In this document: piece by piece, positions 2,348 to 17,332 of the stretch
Layout: the number at the start of each line of letters is the position of its first letter
Position numbering within the stretch: the stretch's first letter is position 1
Virus record (IMG/VR): IMGVR_UViG_3300025687_000378
Span: 1 to 21,778 of that record
Length of the DNA: 21,778 bases
Direction: 5' to 3' (one strand)
Source of the DNA: a virus
Position numbers and translations under genes: made by a program
The notes under the pieces: generated by a model
What the model was told of the DNA's origin: nothing
Seen by the model: the letters and a program-made list of their open reading frames with translations, nothing else
Databases searched by the model: none

Positions 2348-3878
2348 GTAGTTCAGTGTAAAGATCGACAATCTTTGTGTGAACGTCCTTTTTATTATCT
2401 AACATGTTGTAAATGTGTCTTTCAACGCCAGATCCTTGTAGCTGTACGACAGTTGAAGGATGGCGCTGCCCCGAACGATGGACACGCGCATTGGCCTGTT
2501 CATACGTCTCTAATGATGAGGTCGGCCCCCACCACACCACGGTGTTCGCAGCGGTCAGAGTTACCCCGTGCGCTGCTGACTGAGGCTGGATCACCAGCAC
2601 TCGTGGATCATGCTGCTCCTGAAACCGCTTGAAGATGTCCGTACGGTCAGTCGCCTTTACGTCACCTCGGATGATTTCAGTAGTGATTCCGTCCGAACGT
2701 AACTTATCCGTCAGGATGTCGATCACGTGCTTGAACGGTACGAAGACCAGAACCTTCTGGCTACTCTCATCAATAACTTCTTTCAATGCGGCATAACGAT
2801 GCTTGATGTCGAATTCCAGTGTCTGGCCGGAATCGGAGTACACCGCACCGCAGGAAATCTGCAGTAGCTTGTTCATGTTCACCGCCGCATTTGCCGCCGT
2901 GATTTCCTCGCCCGATGCCTGCATCAGCATTTGGCTCTTGAGGATGTTGTAGTACTTCTCCTGCTGCTTGGTCATGGCCGCTGTACGCTTAACGTAGGTC
3001 ATTTCTGGCAGGTCGAGGCATTCGTCCTTGGTGTAGCGGATGGCTGGCTGGAGCGCCCTGAACACGACGTCCGTGGCTTCCGGCTTGGGACGCCATTTGA
3101 ATTGCGTCACCTTGTACATCACCATGTCGCGGAACGACGAGAAGAACTGAGGCACGGCACGGGGATTGACAAGTTTTGCCAGCCCGTAGGCGTCCAACGG
3201 GGACTGCGCTGCTGGGGTGCCGGTCAGCATCCACAGCCATGTGTCAGGAGTTATCAGGGAATTTAGGGTCTTCCAGCGTTTGGTCTGGGCGTTCTTGTAG
3301 GCATTCGCCTCGTCCACCACGATCAGGTCAAATCGGCCTTGTGCGATCTCGTCAGCCACGATCTCCACACCATCGTAGTTGATGATGACAAATTCAGAGG
3401 TACCACGAATGACCGCCCTGCGCTTGTCCTTGGCCCCGTGGGCTACGTCCACCGTGCGGTGCATTGCGAATTTGAACAGGTCGGCCCGCCATGCGGAATC
3501 CATGATGGACAGGGGGCAAATCACCAGCACGCGGCGGATTCGGCGTGCCTTCATCAGGTAGTCCGCTGCCCAAATCACTGAGCCTGTTTTACCTGTACCC
3601 TGCTCGTTCAGGCACAGGGCTTTGCGGTTCATGGTCAGGAACGCAGCCGTAATCTTTTGGTGGTCGAATGGTTTGTACTGTCCCGGCCAGTCGTACTGCC
3701 CCAGAATCGGCGACGGTACGTTTTTAATCTTTAGGTTGCGCAGCACCTGCGCTTCATCCAGTCCCCAATTAACAAGTACTTTGTTATTGTCCAGTTCCTT
3801 GCTCTTCGGTATCACCGTGGTCACCTTGTTCGGGTTCCGCAGGGTCAGTAAAAGAGCCTTGTTCTCTACGATTTCCAT
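2340..3878 (-). CDS. SNF2-like superfamily 2 DNA helicase
   Basis: 512 residues. Motifs seen in order: FDHQK near residue 71 (Q-like), NEQGTGKT at 91-98 (Walker A), VLVICPLSIMDSAW (Ia region), VVDEANAYKN at 187-196 (DEAN, Walker B), LTGTPAAQ at 218-225 (III), VLVFVPFKHV opening the second RecA lobe, then GVTLTAANTVVWWGP and QANARVHRSGQ (V and VI). This is the SWI2/SNF2-like group common in phages. It uses ATP to move along double-stranded DNA and is thought to help fork remodelling or recombination. The length fits a compact phage version without extra domains. The start at 3878 has GGAGA. It follows the HNH-like gene after a 117-nt gap that may carry its own promoter. Confidence 0.93.
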   Translation of the reverse strand: MEIVENKALLLTLRNPNKVTTVIPKSKELDNNKVLVNWGLDEAQVLRNLKIKNVPSPILGQYDWPGQYKPFDHQKITAAFLTMNRKALCLNEQGTGKTGSVIWAADYLMKARRIRRVLVICPLSIMDSAWRADLFKFAMHRTVDVAHGAKDKRRAVIRGTSEFVIINYDGVEIVADEIAQGRFDLIVVDEANAYKNAQTKRWKTLNSLITPDTWLWMLTGTPAAQSPLDAYGLAKLVNPRAVPQFFSSFRDMVMYKVTQFKWRPKPEATDVVFRALQPAIRYTKDECLDLPEMTYVKRTAAMTKQQEKYYNILKSQMLMQASGEEITAANAAVNMNKLLQISCGAVYSDSGQTLEFDIKHRYAALKEVIDESSQKVLVFVPFKHVIDILTDKLRSDGITTEIIRGDVKATDRTDIFKRFQEQHDPRVLVIQPQSAAHGVTLTAANTVVWWGPTSSLETYEQANARVHRSGQRHPSTVVQLQGSGVERHIYNMLDNKKDVHTKIVDLYTELLA

Positions 3879-4286: not shown

Positions 4287-4953
4287 ATCCGTTTCTCCCG
4301 TTGTGTGGGCACTCCATCACAACGCAGTGGGCTTTACACAATCCAGACGTACGGGGGTTCCAAACATCCTGCTCATACGCCGATTTAAGCCGATTGTAAT
4401 CGGTCAGCCATTTTTCCCATAGCCTCGGCTCGTCGTCCTTGCTGTACTCCGCCTTGACAAAATCCTGCGAGATTACGAACGCCAGCCCTGCTTTCACGTG
4501 GGTCACCTGCGGGAAGTGTTTGAAGGTGGCAAGTGCCATCAACTCAAGCTGCCCTCGGTCGGCGTACTTGGCCGATTTCCCAGTCTTGTAATCAATAACT
4601 TTCGCCTTGTCCCCGTTCAGAATCAGCAGGTCGACAATACCCCGCCACCACACATCAGGGGATTTGAATCCGCACGGCTCCAGATTCTCGGTCAACCCTA
4701 ACTCGTACTCACACAGCTTCTCCCCCTCCATCGCATTAAGTTTTTCTAATGCGGTTTGGGCGAACTTGAACTGCGGTGGAATCGGCGTGCCGTCCCGTAC
4801 GTACTCCTCGGCAGCCTTGTGGAAAGCCGTGCCATAGAGCATGGCTTCGGTCTCCTTCTCTCTGTAGTCCCGTGCTACTTTCAGGTGGTAGTACTTCTTC
4901 GGGCACTGCTCAAAGGTCTTAATGCTACTGAACGACCACGCTGGGATTTTCAT
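4276..4953 (-). CDS. Cas4/RecB-like PD-(D/E)XK exonuclease with predicted iron-sulfur cluster
   Basis: 225 residues. Seen: SFSSIKTFEQCPKKYYHLKV at residues 8-27 (first cluster cysteine), GTAFHKAAEEY near 42 (catalytic His), RGIVDLLIL near 104 (Asp), VIDYKTGK near 118 (DxK), QLELMAL near 135, and GLCKAHCVVMECPHNGR near the end (three more cysteines). This is the complete plan of Cas4/AddB-type nucleases: four cysteines clamping a 4Fe-4S cluster around a RecB nuclease core. The phage form probably processes DNA ends in replication or recombination. There is no CRISPR context, so a role in spacer acquisition is not indicated. The start overlaps the polymerase stop (ATGA), showing translational coupling. 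Confidence 0.88.
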   Translation of the reverse strand: MKIPAWSFSSIKTFEQCPKKYYHLKVARDYREKETEAMLYGTAFHKAAEEYVRDGTPIPPQFKFAQTALEKLNAMEGEKLCEYELGLTENLEPCGFKSPDVWWRGIVDLLILNGDKAKVIDYKTGKSAKYADRGQLELMALATFKHFPQVTHVKAGLAFVISQDFVKAEYSKDDEPRLWEKWLTDYNRLKSAYEQDVWNPRTSGLCKAHCVVMECPHNGRNGYAL

Positions 4954-7619
4954 TCACAATCTCCGTAACTATCACCAACACCAGACTCACAATTTACAGG
5001 TAAACCCGCTGCCCAATCGGGCACCCAACGCATGCACTCTTCAATGTACGCACGGGCTTCATCAACGTCAGCCTCACGAACACAACATGTGATCGCATCG
5101 TGTACGGTCAATACCACTCGGTACTTCTTGGCAATCTTCAACATCTGCTCACCGATAATACACCGCGCGATTGCCTGACAAGCATTTTCAATACACTTAC
5201 CTCCGTATATGCGAGTGCGACCACGCCGTGTCTTATAACTGTACTCCAGCCCACGTTCACCTTGTTCGGCAACGAGATCGTCGTAGCGCATAAACAAGCC
5301 GGACGGTAACCTAATACCCGACTCCGAAGGAACAACGTCAAGCACTCCCGCACGCCCGAGATACGTAGCGTCCCCACGGGCTAGGTTCTCGATCATAAAC
5401 TGCGCGTCCTTCCACAGTCCCGTGATCTGGTTGTTTGTTCTACGGTAGATGTCGATAACACGACGGGCTTCATCCAACTCCATATCAAACCCAAACGTCT
5501 TTAGCTGCGCTTGGAATTTAATTGCGCCCATGCCATAGCCACAGTTATGGGCTATAACAGGACCACTATCGGTTAAGATCGTGAAGCGATTCCTCGGCCC
5601 TGCGTAAGCGATGTCGTAAGTCGGCAATAGTCTTTTCGAGGTTACTAACACGCCGTTTGTTACGTAAGTTTTCACTTCTCGATACAAATCGTATATTACC
5701 CGGCGTATATCCACCGTCGACGTCGATCCTGTCCATTTCAAATTCTGGGTTATCCCACCCATCAAGTGTCTGGACGAATTTGAGGAAGGAGATGCGATCG
5801 TTTCTCCACTGCTCATGTACATATATCCCGCGTTCCCCATAGTGCTTGTAAGCTCTATTCTTTTGGTTATGGCACCGGGAGATAGCAGAAGATAATCTAT
5901 TAAGTAGTCTAGTTCGGTGCGTATCGTCTGGCATCGCTTCTGAGTAAATCCAGTAACGCTTTTGGTGAGATGCTTCTTTAGCACATACAGGGCATCTAGT
6001 AGACTTGAAACTTTTGAAGTTGTGTTGGTCAACCGTGTATTCGTCACACCCGCAATCGCATTTAACAATGATTGCTTTAACTCCACCCCGCATGCCACGT
6101 ATGTAGCCTGTAACGGTAAGTTTTCCGCTCCGCGTTCCAATGCTAGGGATAGGGTATTTACGTCTTGCACCGCTGATCCGCTCTCCTCCCATTTTGTCCC
6201 GCACAATATCTTGTGATCCGGCGTTAACCAACTCCCGCAAACGCTCAATGTTTCTTTGATGCCCTTCGGCACTAATCCTTGATGGCATACAAACTCCTCC
6301 CCGTCCCAAACCATGTCATCAACAGAAACCTTTTCTATTGGTTTCCACCCTGAGTCACACAGTACAGGAGTTCCCTCGGCAATACAACCCAAGATAGTCG
6401 TCTTACCTACGAATCGTTGGTCCTTGGTTATTTCATCTTCTGGTACGCCGTAGATAGCTGATGCCATCTTCTTGTATACGTCTTTACCCTCGGAGAACGC
6501 TTCAACCAAATCATCCTGCCCTGCAAGCCACGCGAGTACACGTGCTTCGATCTGTGCTGAGTCAGCGTCAATAATTTTGAATCCTTTTGGCGCGATGATT
6601 GACTGCTTCAGCTTCTTTGCATTCGGTCCACGGCTCGGTAAGTTCTGCATATTGATCTTGTCATCACCACCCCAGCGACCCGTATGTGCTGCGTAATAAC
6701 GTACAGGTACCGGCAACTTGCCACGCTTCGCAATATCGATAAACCGCTGCGTACGTGTTTCTTCTAGCGTGGATTTCGTACCGAGACGCGCTGCTACTAA
6801 AGACTGCACGCGGTCATCGTCGTGGTCAGCTAATGCTTTGAATCCCTCATCGCTCTTCGCTAATGCCAGCGTTTCTTTGCCAGTGGTCGGACTGATCTTA
6901 ACCGGCGGTTCTACGCCCAAATCTTTCAGCAGTTCAGCAAACTTGGGATTACTCATCAGGTCATCTTTCGATACGCCTGCATCCTCAAGCAAATCGTCCT
7001 TGCGATCTTTAACTGCCTGCAAGTGTGCTTCTAGTAACGGTAAGTTCAGTTCCAGAATCGGGTCGATAAACATACGCAGAGTCAGGTCGATCAACTTCAA
7101 CTCTTGCTTCGGGAATCCACGTGACATCTTCTTGAACAACTTATAGGTCAACTCCACGTCATTCACGCAGTAGTCCCCGTAGCGGCTCAGTTCTTCTTCG
7201 TTGAAATCGGCACGGCGCTTACCCAAAGCGTTAAGTACTTCGGTACCCTTCTCACCAAGACCGTAGCGTTCCGTCAGTGCTTTAAGTGATCCACCAACTT
7301 CGACACCATGAATAGCACGGCCCATACAGAGAGTGTCAGCCCAAACGCGGGGATGAACATCAAACAACCAGCTAAGTATGGCCCCGTCGAACATGGTGTT
7401 GTGCGCCAGTACCATTGAGTTGGCCCAGTCGAATGTGTGTAGCCATTTCTTAATCTGTTCATGTGTACCACTCGCCCACTGTGTCGGTTCGTCATTTACC
7501 TTGATCGCAAGGCCGATTACTTCAAACTGATCCGAGCGTACGTATTCCTCGGTGGTCATCTTCGATAACGAAAACTCTTTAGAGTAAAACGTCTCGAAGT
7601 CAACTGTTATTAAATTCAT
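4950..7619 (-). CDS. Family A DNA polymerase (3'-5' exonuclease plus polymerase) interrupted by an intein
   Basis: 889 residues before splicing, 608 after. Exonuclease domain: DFET at 7-10, LAHNTMFDGA at 71-80, YCVNDVELT at 150-158. Polymerase domain: motif A DADSAQIEAR at 351-360; motif B R402...K406...L410, completed after splicing by CGYGMG; motif C TVHDAI at 838-843. There is no 5'-3' exonuclease domain. The residue equivalent to E. coli Phe762 is Leu410. The intein (residues 412-692) sits inside motif B, so the polymerase can only work after splicing. The start at 7619 overlaps the upstream stop (ATGA) and has GGAGG. This is the replicative polymerase, flanked by nuclease and helicase genes. 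A second gene is nested in the intein in another frame (see 5566-6288). Confidence 0.96.
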   Translation of the reverse strand: MNLITVDFETFYSKEFSLSKMTTEEYVRSDQFEVIGLAIKVNDEPTQWASGTHEQIKKWLHTFDWANSMVLAHNTMFDGAILSWLFDVHPRVWADTLCMGRAIHGVEVGGSLKALTERYGLGEKGTEVLNALGKRRADFNEEELSRYGDYCVNDVELTYKLFKKMSRGFPKQELKLIDLTLRMFIDPILELNLPLLEAHLQAVKDRKDDLLEDAGVSKDDLMSNPKFAELLKDLGVEPPVKISPTTGKETLALAKSDEGFKALADHDDDRVQSLVAARLGTKSTLEETRTQRFIDIAKRGKLPVPVRYYAAHTGRWGGDDKINMQNLPSRGPNAKKLKQSIIAPKGFKIIDADSAQIEARVLAWLAGQDDLVEAFSEGKDVYKKMASAIYGVPEDEITKDQRFVGKTTILGCIAEGTPVLCDSGWKPIEKVSVDDMVWDGEEFVCHQGLVPKGIKETLSVCGSWLTPDHKILCGTKWEESGSAVQDVNTLSLALERGAENLPLQATYVACGVELKQSLLNAIAGVTNTRLTNTTSKVSSLLDALYVLKKHLTKSVTGFTQKRCQTIRTELDYLIDYLLLSPGAITKRIELTSTMGNAGYMYMSSGETIASPSSNSSRHLMGGITQNLKWTGSTSTVDIRRVIYDLYREVKTYVTNGVLVTSKRLLPTYDIAYAGPRNRFTILTDSGPVIAHNCGYGMGAIKFQAQLKTFGFDMELDEARRVIDIYRRTNNQITGLWKDAQFMIENLARGDATYLGRAGVLDVVPSESGIRLPSGLFMRYDDLVAEQGERGLEYSYKTRRGRTRIYGGKCIENACQAIARCIIGEQMLKIAKKYRVVLTVHDAITCCVREADVDEARAYIEECMRWVPDWAAGLPVNCESGVGDSYGDCE
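5544..6386 (-). mobile_element. Intein in motif B of the DNA polymerase (281 residues)
   Basis: The intein starts at Cys412 (CIAEGTPVL, block A), has GSWLTPDHKIL (block B with T466 and H469), PTYDIAYAGPRNRF (block F) and ends PVIAHN, with Cys693 as the first residue of the C-extein. All residues needed for standard Cys-Asn splicing are present. Removing it joins KTTILG to CGYGMG and restores a normal polymerase O-helix. In the polymerase frame there is no LAGLIDADG or HNH domain between blocks B and F; the connecting part is Ser/Thr-rich and low in recognisable structure. The homing nuclease is instead encoded out of frame within the same DNA. Confidence 0.93.
5566..6288 (-). CDS. HNH homing-type endonuclease nested out of frame inside the intein
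   Basis: 240 residues from the ATG at 6288, which has a perfect GGAGGAG five bases upstream; an in-frame TTG at 6309 is less likely. Seen: GKLTVTGYIRG near 55; a zinc-type cluster KCDCGC (77-81) with CPVC (99-102); and the HNH core YKHYGERGIYVHEQW (137-151), MDRIDVDGGYTPGNIRF (175-191) and SENLRNKR (195-202). This is the phage homing HNH family that cuts an intein- or intron-less copy of a gene. The whole gene lies inside the intein, on the same strand as the polymerase but in another frame, ending 22 nt before the intein's last base. Its core overlaps the intein linker; its less constrained ends overlap splicing blocks B and F. It probably promotes homing of the intein. Confidence 0.88.
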   Translation of the reverse strand: MPSRISAEGHQRNIERLRELVNAGSQDIVRDKMGGERISGARRKYPIPSIGTRSGKLTVTGYIRGMRGGVKAIIVKCDCGCDEYTVDQHNFKSFKSTRCPVCAKEASHQKRYWIYSEAMPDDTHRTRLLNRLSSAISRCHNQKNRAYKHYGERGIYVHEQWRNDRISFLKFVQTLDGWDNPEFEMDRIDVDGGYTPGNIRFVSRSENLRNKRRVSNLEKTIADLRHRLRRAEESLHDLNR

Positions 7620-17026: not shown

Positions 17027-17332
17027 ATGCGATTCAAGTTATCTCAACATTGGTATACAAAGCACCGTGCGTTGGTGCTAGAACGTGATGGGCGGGTTTG
17101 CCATTACTGTGGTAAGGCATTACCACTTAAAAGTTCGGCTTGTTTGGATCATGTTGTGCCTAGGTCGAAAGGTGGTAGCGACGATCCGGATAATTTAGTA
17201 GTGGCCTGCAAACGGTGTAATACACAGAAAGGTAACGCCGATTTGGGTGTGTATATCGCCAGACGTTTGGCGCATATAGATCGGGAGCGCAAGCGATTAC
17301 TAGAACTCGCCGAGTGCTTACCTGAAGATTGA
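17027..17332 (+). CDS. HNH endonuclease next to the terminase genes
   Basis: 101 residues. Seen: VCHYCGKALP near 24-33, CLDHVVPRSKGGSDDPDNLVVACKRCNTQKGN at about 39-70: two CxxC pairs for structural zinc, the DH catalytic pair and the final N of the HNH motif. This is the McrA-like free-standing HNH type. Phages with this kind of HNH near terminase genes may use it to help cut DNA for packaging; alternatively it is a homing or selfish nuclease. The start at 17027 has GGAGAG. It is bracketed by 24-bp direct repeats (16928, 17425) and has palindrome copies 9 and 10 downstream, so it might be a separate insertion. Confidence 0.9.
   Translation: MRFKLSQHWYTKHRALVLERDGRVCHYCGKALPLKSSACLDHVVPRSKGGSDDPDNLVVACKRCNTQKGNADLGVYIARRLAHIDRERKRLLELAECLPED

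Follow-up and report, generated by a model that had tools for sequence, protein, structure and literature searches.

An HNH-type nuclease gene nested out of frame within the intein of a phage family A DNA polymerase

The polymerase gene and its intein

The window analysed is a 21,778-base IMG/VR virus record. All features of the locus described here lie on its minus strand, where an open reading frame at positions 4950-7619 encodes the precursor of a family A DNA polymerase, 889 aa long with its intein included (PF00476, E = 7.8e-32; PHROG 17). A continuous intein of 281 aa (polymerase residues 412-692; 5544-6386) occupies the site GKTTILG↓CGYGMG, where the arrow marks the junction; its limits are based on sequence blocks, a 30-member alignment (A6), a HINT-like model and empty-site alleles. 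The N-terminal splicing half (residues 1-96; 6099-6386) contains Cys1 and the block B residues T55-P-D-H58 (6213-6224). The C-terminal half (5544-5642) contains block F (D258, R267, F268), G275 and H280-N281, and is followed by the Cys+1 of the C-extein (5541-5543). The two are joined by a Ser/Thr-rich linker of 152 residues (97-248; 5643-6098), which is predicted to be unfolded and which, read out of frame, is the nuclease core.

In polymerase numbering, Cys1 is C412, and T55 and H58 are T466 and H469. C1, T55, D57, H58 and the terminal H280-N281 are invariant in alignment A6, and the block F residues and G275 are conserved. The features expected of a class-1-type intein, namely Cys or Ser at position 1, a TxxH motif in block B and His-Asn followed by Cys, Ser or Thr, are all present. 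The full set of canonical blocks read in the polymerase frame by the preliminary description (Cys1, T466/H469, block F, His-Asn and Cys+1) was confirmed.

The nested nuclease gene

A second gene, of 240 codons plus a stop, lies wholly inside the intein (5566-6288), in the -1 (= +2) frame of the polymerase. Profile searches on both frames, suggested earlier as a check, assign the nested frame to PHROG 374 'HNH endonuclease' (E = 3.5e-35), with further matches to PHROG 3377 and 2081, and the intein frame to PHROG 93 (E = 3e-15). No match of the nested protein to a Pfam HNH family was found. Its putative zinc cluster is formed by C77, C79, C99 and C102 (5983-6060), invariant in alignments A5 and A7, and a beta-beta-alpha core with D186-R187, N198, N207 and N210 (5653-5742) was placed by AF2 and by the residues invariant in A7. 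AF2 models were built from the window and IMG/VR sequences only. The nuclease model has a mean pLDDT of 85.8, with strands at 183-187 and 199-203 and a helix starting at 204; D186-R187 occupies the position expected for the canonical first HNH His.

The closest predicted viral structures (BFVD) include phage HNH endonucleases, while no solid match was obtained among solved structures, searched by sequence in the PDB, by Foldseek and by VIA-align. The HNH label rests on profile and predicted topology, and catalysis is inferred. The gene had been described as a full 240-residue HNH nuclease with zinc cluster and HNH core: the reading frame, the PHROG 374 match and the four cysteines bear this out, but the first His is not evident, the residue there being R187.

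The zinc region (residues 48-103; 5980-6147, minus strand) unexpectedly matches the Pfam CapR homology domain PF21817 (E = 2.6e-6), as do 8 of 29 members of the nuclease family at E<=0.1. On the plus strand of the window, at 17027-17332, there is another small HNH endonuclease gene (PF01844, E = 4.6e-15), which seems to have no relation to the nested gene.

The intein model reaches a pLDDT of about 95 for residues 1-96 and of 87-95 for the C-terminal half (250-281), and stays below 50 over linker residues 97-248. When the splicing domain model was compared by Foldseek, the top matches were Mtu RecA and other mini-inteins, with a probability of 1.00 although at E = 4e-3, and a HINT-like fold is assigned to it on the strength of the model. 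Since both the intein halves and the nuclease are predicted to fold and the linker is not, the folded part of one protein covers the unfolded part of the other. The essential parts of each product are placed opposite dispensable parts of the other, with the splicing blocks at the ends and the nuclease core over the linker; the earlier statement that the HNH core faces only the flexible linker agrees with both models. The Ser/Thr-rich linker (TGSTSTVDI) proposed as a search signature is a by-product: it reflects, in the other frame, a motif that is conserved in the nuclease.

Selection on both frames

In order to evaluate the overlap, each nuclease protein was kept fixed and its synonymous codons were redrawn with the codon usage of the flanking polymerase, in 76 non-redundant nested units. 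The intein frame contains no stop, against about 511 expected. In the third frame, used as a control on the same units, 1252 stops were observed and 890 expected; there is, therefore, no general avoidance of stops. For the window alone, recoded with the gene's own codon usage, 9.1 stops were expected in the polymerase frame and none is present, and none of 2000 recodings was open, so that the reported openness of this frame across the nested gene holds. Chance overlap is ruled out by the recoding null together with the third-frame control.

The position of substitutions was analysed in 24 pairs. Position 3 of the polymerase codons takes 63% of the substitutions in the extein, 61% in the first 33 intein codons and 61% in the last 20; in the core of the overlap, polymerase position 2, equivalent to nuclease position 3, takes 61%. 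One pair (L056/L075) duplicates another (L058/L078) and was dropped for the dN/dS estimates, the pattern being unchanged. These were obtained by the Nei-Gojobori method, pooled over 17 pairs, a naive procedure which is biased in overlapping genes. In the polymerase frame, dN/dS is 0.15 for block A (codons 1-30), 0.25 where block B is overlapped and 0.16 for the last 25 codons. In the overlap core it is 0.15 for the nuclease frame, 1.39 for the intein frame and 1.77 for the third frame. The N-terminus of the nuclease, over block B, is weakly constrained (0.72). The regional contrast does not come from overlap bias alone: constraint switches frame along the element, and both frames have been preserved by evolution in the window phage and in many relatives.

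These results also bear on a self-splicing intron of group I type, carrying an HNH gene and leaving the polymerase frame open only incidentally. HNH genes are frequent in phage introns, and the record of Sodalis phage SO-1, whose gp38/gp39 are family members (the HNH frame is 46.6% identical) and where both ORFs are annotated, invokes in GenBank a 'type I self-splicing intron'. The present evidence does not support that annotation, as an intron needs neither an open frame, nor Cys1, TxxH, HN and Cys+1, nor purifying selection in the polymerase frame, all of which were found. Moreover, AF2 yields an intein-like splicing domain, and Rfam gave no match at the gathering threshold in the window or in four relatives, nor any in the insert up to E=1. 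An intron is regarded as scarcely tenable.

Start and probable expression of the nuclease

The nuclease starts at an ATG (6286-6288) whose A is the third base of an intein Val codon, GTA. Five nt before it, within the codons for intein D-G-E-E-F, lies a ribosome-binding-like motif, GGAGGAG (6294-6300), with a predicted anti-SD energy of -11.0, against a recoding mean of -7.5. Across the family the start is located at either of two fixed places. GTA is found in all 17 non-redundant members of the window's subclade, where 4.3 were expected, and the required A in 27 of 36 members of the larger clade, where 9.4 were expected (z = 7.5 and 7.2 for selection on the start codon). The strong GGAGGAG-like motif is common only in the window's subclade, which also drives the modest overall SD enrichment (Wilcoxon p = 9e-4). 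The preliminary description was thus right about the motif and its spacing from ATG 6288, and the start it proposed is strongly biased among relatives, but a strong SD is a trait of one subclade. A universal Shine-Dalgarno was considered and rejected, a strong one having no support outside that subclade. At intein offset 77, a second possible ATG is seen in many loci, with an A as third base in 34 of 53 (8.6 expected); no SD enrichment accompanies this alternative start. A sigma-70 promoter scan gave nothing above shuffled sequences.

Relative to the polymerase, the nuclease is read at -1, and many relatives lack a strong SD, as could be expected if programmed ribosomal frameshifting produced a fusion of polymerase, N-intein and nuclease, without a start of its own. 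The fixed position of the start codon and the strong selection on its third base speak against such a fusion, as do stops just upstream of the nuclease start in Jerseyviruses and others, and the use of both alternative frames by related classes. Frameshifting is accordingly held to be improbable, without being formally excluded, and internal initiation at ATG 6288, which is inferred, remains the best guess.

Distribution of nested units

A first survey, based on profiles for the splicing blocks and for the nuclease in every frame, gathered loci through the nuclease, the best 80 per scan being retained. It returned, among the matches listed, 103 complete nested units (76 non-redundant), with the nuclease at -1 in 93, at +1 in 10 and in frame in none; the intein frame has no stop in any of them. 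As this set had been collected through the nuclease, the survey was repeated from the splicing domain alone, again with the best 80 loci per scan. Among the 78 complete inteins listed, 72 have a nuclease at -1, four at +1, two have none, and none has it in frame. The intein frame is open in 77 of them; the remaining one (L268, +1 class) contains stops, and its C-terminal end is uncertain. The in-frame nuclease of bifunctional inteins is, therefore, absent from both sets of listed units. In IMG/VR, the nuclease profile found 191 loci, of which the best 80 were kept; 9 were found in bacterial genome contigs.

Annotated relatives include Salmonella Jerseyvirus, Escherichia Kagunavirus, Dhillonvirus (Sodalis SO-1, Shigella EP23), Vibrio 97.13, EBPR siphovirus 2 and Pseudomonas MR14; their identity to the window is about 43-53% in the nested frame and about 27-33% in the intein frame. 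The record of Jerseyvirus Ent1 describes the homologous element as an intein 'encoding splicing domains' and leaves the nested HNH gene unannotated.

Other arrangements were encountered as well. At another polymerase site (...↓CEN), the nuclease is at +1 in L013 (APSE-4), in L014 (Caulobacter RLK) and in the second inteins of L057 and L071; the APSE-4 and Caulobacter RLK records annotate the polymerase alone. On reading of the sequences, three of the 78 inteins lie outside the polymerase, in phage SNF2/DEAD-type helicases (L260, L262 and, for the intein at 3001, L276), and also contain nested out-of-frame nucleases, two at +1 and one at -1. In the old record of Salmonella phage SS3e (L018), apparent frameshifts break up both frames into several ORFs, through either sequencing error or real decay.

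Empty sites, decay and origin

The same polymerase occurs without the 897-nt insert in Salmonella phage S119 and others (95% identity), and the junction is exact; the comparison of S119 with Ent1 shows a clean 897-nt insertion with identical junction residues. For the window's own site, at least 80 IMG/VR polymerases are contiguous through GKTTILG↓(A/C)GYG, at up to 84% identity. Insertion is thus precise with respect to intein-less homologues, and nested units are found at several sites around polymerase motifs. Among the matches listed, the residue at +1 is Ala in 76 of 80 intein-less alleles, and Cys or Ser in all 92 inteins of the -1 class with a clear HN end. Splicing needs a residue of this kind at this position, and insertion may therefore bring the +1 residue along.

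It was also considered that the element might be an ordinary intein with a dead nuclease relic that earlier indels had shifted out of register, the frame remaining open by inertia. Nuclease remnants do occur: five shortened inteins of 135-182 aa (L202, L204, L216, L220, L223) retain them with an intact splicing frame, apparently as stages of loss, and one full-length unit (L032) has a truncated nuclease core within an open intein. The other 102 of the 103 cores listed are intact, the nuclease-frame dN/dS of 0.15 spans deep divergence, start codons are under selection and the -1 class is one clade. Decay of the HNH frame in relatives, which the preliminary description had named as grounds for refutation, was thus not encountered in these 103 units beyond that single core, and a relic is very unlikely. 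Decay is one-directional, as expected with splicing essential and the nuclease dispensable.

In the nuclease tree the -1 class forms one group (support 95/83), and 96% of bootstrap trees show a single change. The +1 class is divided between two positions, near free-standing phage genes, and the backbone is weak. At least two origins of nesting are likely on this phylogeny, but not proven.

Dual coding could be real and the nuclease still serve another role than homing, such as DNA processing or competition with co-infecting phages. The evidence on this point consists of conservation and of presence or absence only, and the Jerseyvirus pattern could include precise loss. On the other hand, the nuclease always lies within an intein at conserved motifs, its presence is sporadic with precise empty sites, and the several insertion sites and host genes form the pattern of a homing element. 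A role other than homing is considered unlikely, though it cannot be dismissed.

Discussion

The observation of the first reading is confirmed, and its main interpretation is supported: a dual-coding mobile intein is considered highly probable, splicing, internal initiation, cleavage and homing being inferred. The polymerase mRNA would be translated straight through a class-1-type intein (Cys1, TxxH, His-Asn, Cys+1), whose self-excision would restore motif B of the family A polymerase. Ribosomes would also initiate at ATG 6288 and, decoding the same DNA in the -1 frame, make a zinc-ribbon nuclease of HNH type as a distinct protein. This nuclease probably cleaves polymerase alleles that lack the intein, at GKTTILG↓(A/C)GYG, and repair of the cut would copy the whole element.

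Canonical mobile inteins (Mtu RecA, PI-SceI; with in-frame LAGLIDADG or HNH nucleases) share with the present element the HINT-like domain, the nuclease between blocks B and F and a sporadic occurrence in essential replication genes. Here, however, the nuclease is a separate polypeptide from another frame, and the in-frame linker is unfolded.

Fractured genes, reportedly described by Dassa et al. in 2009, are said to contain split inteins whose two halves are separated by a free-standing nuclease. The nuclease is likewise translated separately and lies between blocks B and F, but the host gene is there cut in two, whereas the polymerase frame is here continuous, so that the element does not qualify as a fractured split intein. 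Four loci (L001, L031, L032, L059) have in the same polymerase genes a second, upstream, fractured intein, laid out as an ORF for N-polymerase and N-intein, a separate HNH gene and an ORF for C-intein and C-polymerase. In these loci, one gene holds two solutions for housing a nuclease.

The nearest published idea is that of ShiLan (PMC11855218), where an out-of-frame HNH gene lies in an insertion kept open in the host-gene frame, with a homing-like distribution. That insertion lacks the motifs and the fold of an intein and is believed to be retained in the protein, and its HNH gene has a GTG start and no detectable RBS. In the present case a splicing domain surrounds the nuclease and all intein blocks are present, so the lack of splicing motifs that marks a ShiLan-type insertion does not apply. 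An out-of-frame HNH gene in a putative intein is briefly mentioned for a brucellaphage terminase (PMC4422536); the available part of that account reports neither splicing blocks nor an analysis of the frames, nor selection estimated with the overlap taken into account.

In the open-access papers searched, no account was found of a splicing intein in which a nested nuclease is under selection, or of how widespread this is, subscription papers and preprints being outside the search. The claim that the arrangement is undescribed can therefore be kept only in part, given the partial precedents in the brucellaphage terminase, ShiLan and the SO-1 annotation.

A further possibility, entertained only tentatively and regarded as somewhat doubtful, is that nesting is an evolved strategy, by which the nuclease became entangled with the intein of an essential gene, with at least two origins, both alternative frames and at least two kinds of host genes (polymerase, helicases). 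A frameshifting indel in the nuclease would also kill the replicative polymerase, and the nuclease would therefore be protected from the decay that homing genes usually undergo. If true, this would be a natural counterpart of engineered gene entanglement.

The element, with its out-of-frame nested nuclease, is widespread among phage relatives and would work like a homing intein, but without the usual in-frame layout. Beside in-frame fusion and split genes, overprinting across an unfolded linker would be a third means of combining a homing nuclease and a splicing element, and would account for the odd, long Ser/Thr-rich linkers of phage polymerase inteins. It would also correct annotations such as the SO-1 'intron' and the Jerseyvirus inteins without an annotated nuclease. 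A long overlap between two unrelated folds, both strongly selected, is valuable for studying shared coding constraint, and Salmonella Jerseyvirus, with and without the intein, provides a laboratory-tractable system for homing and for the evolution of overlapping genes.
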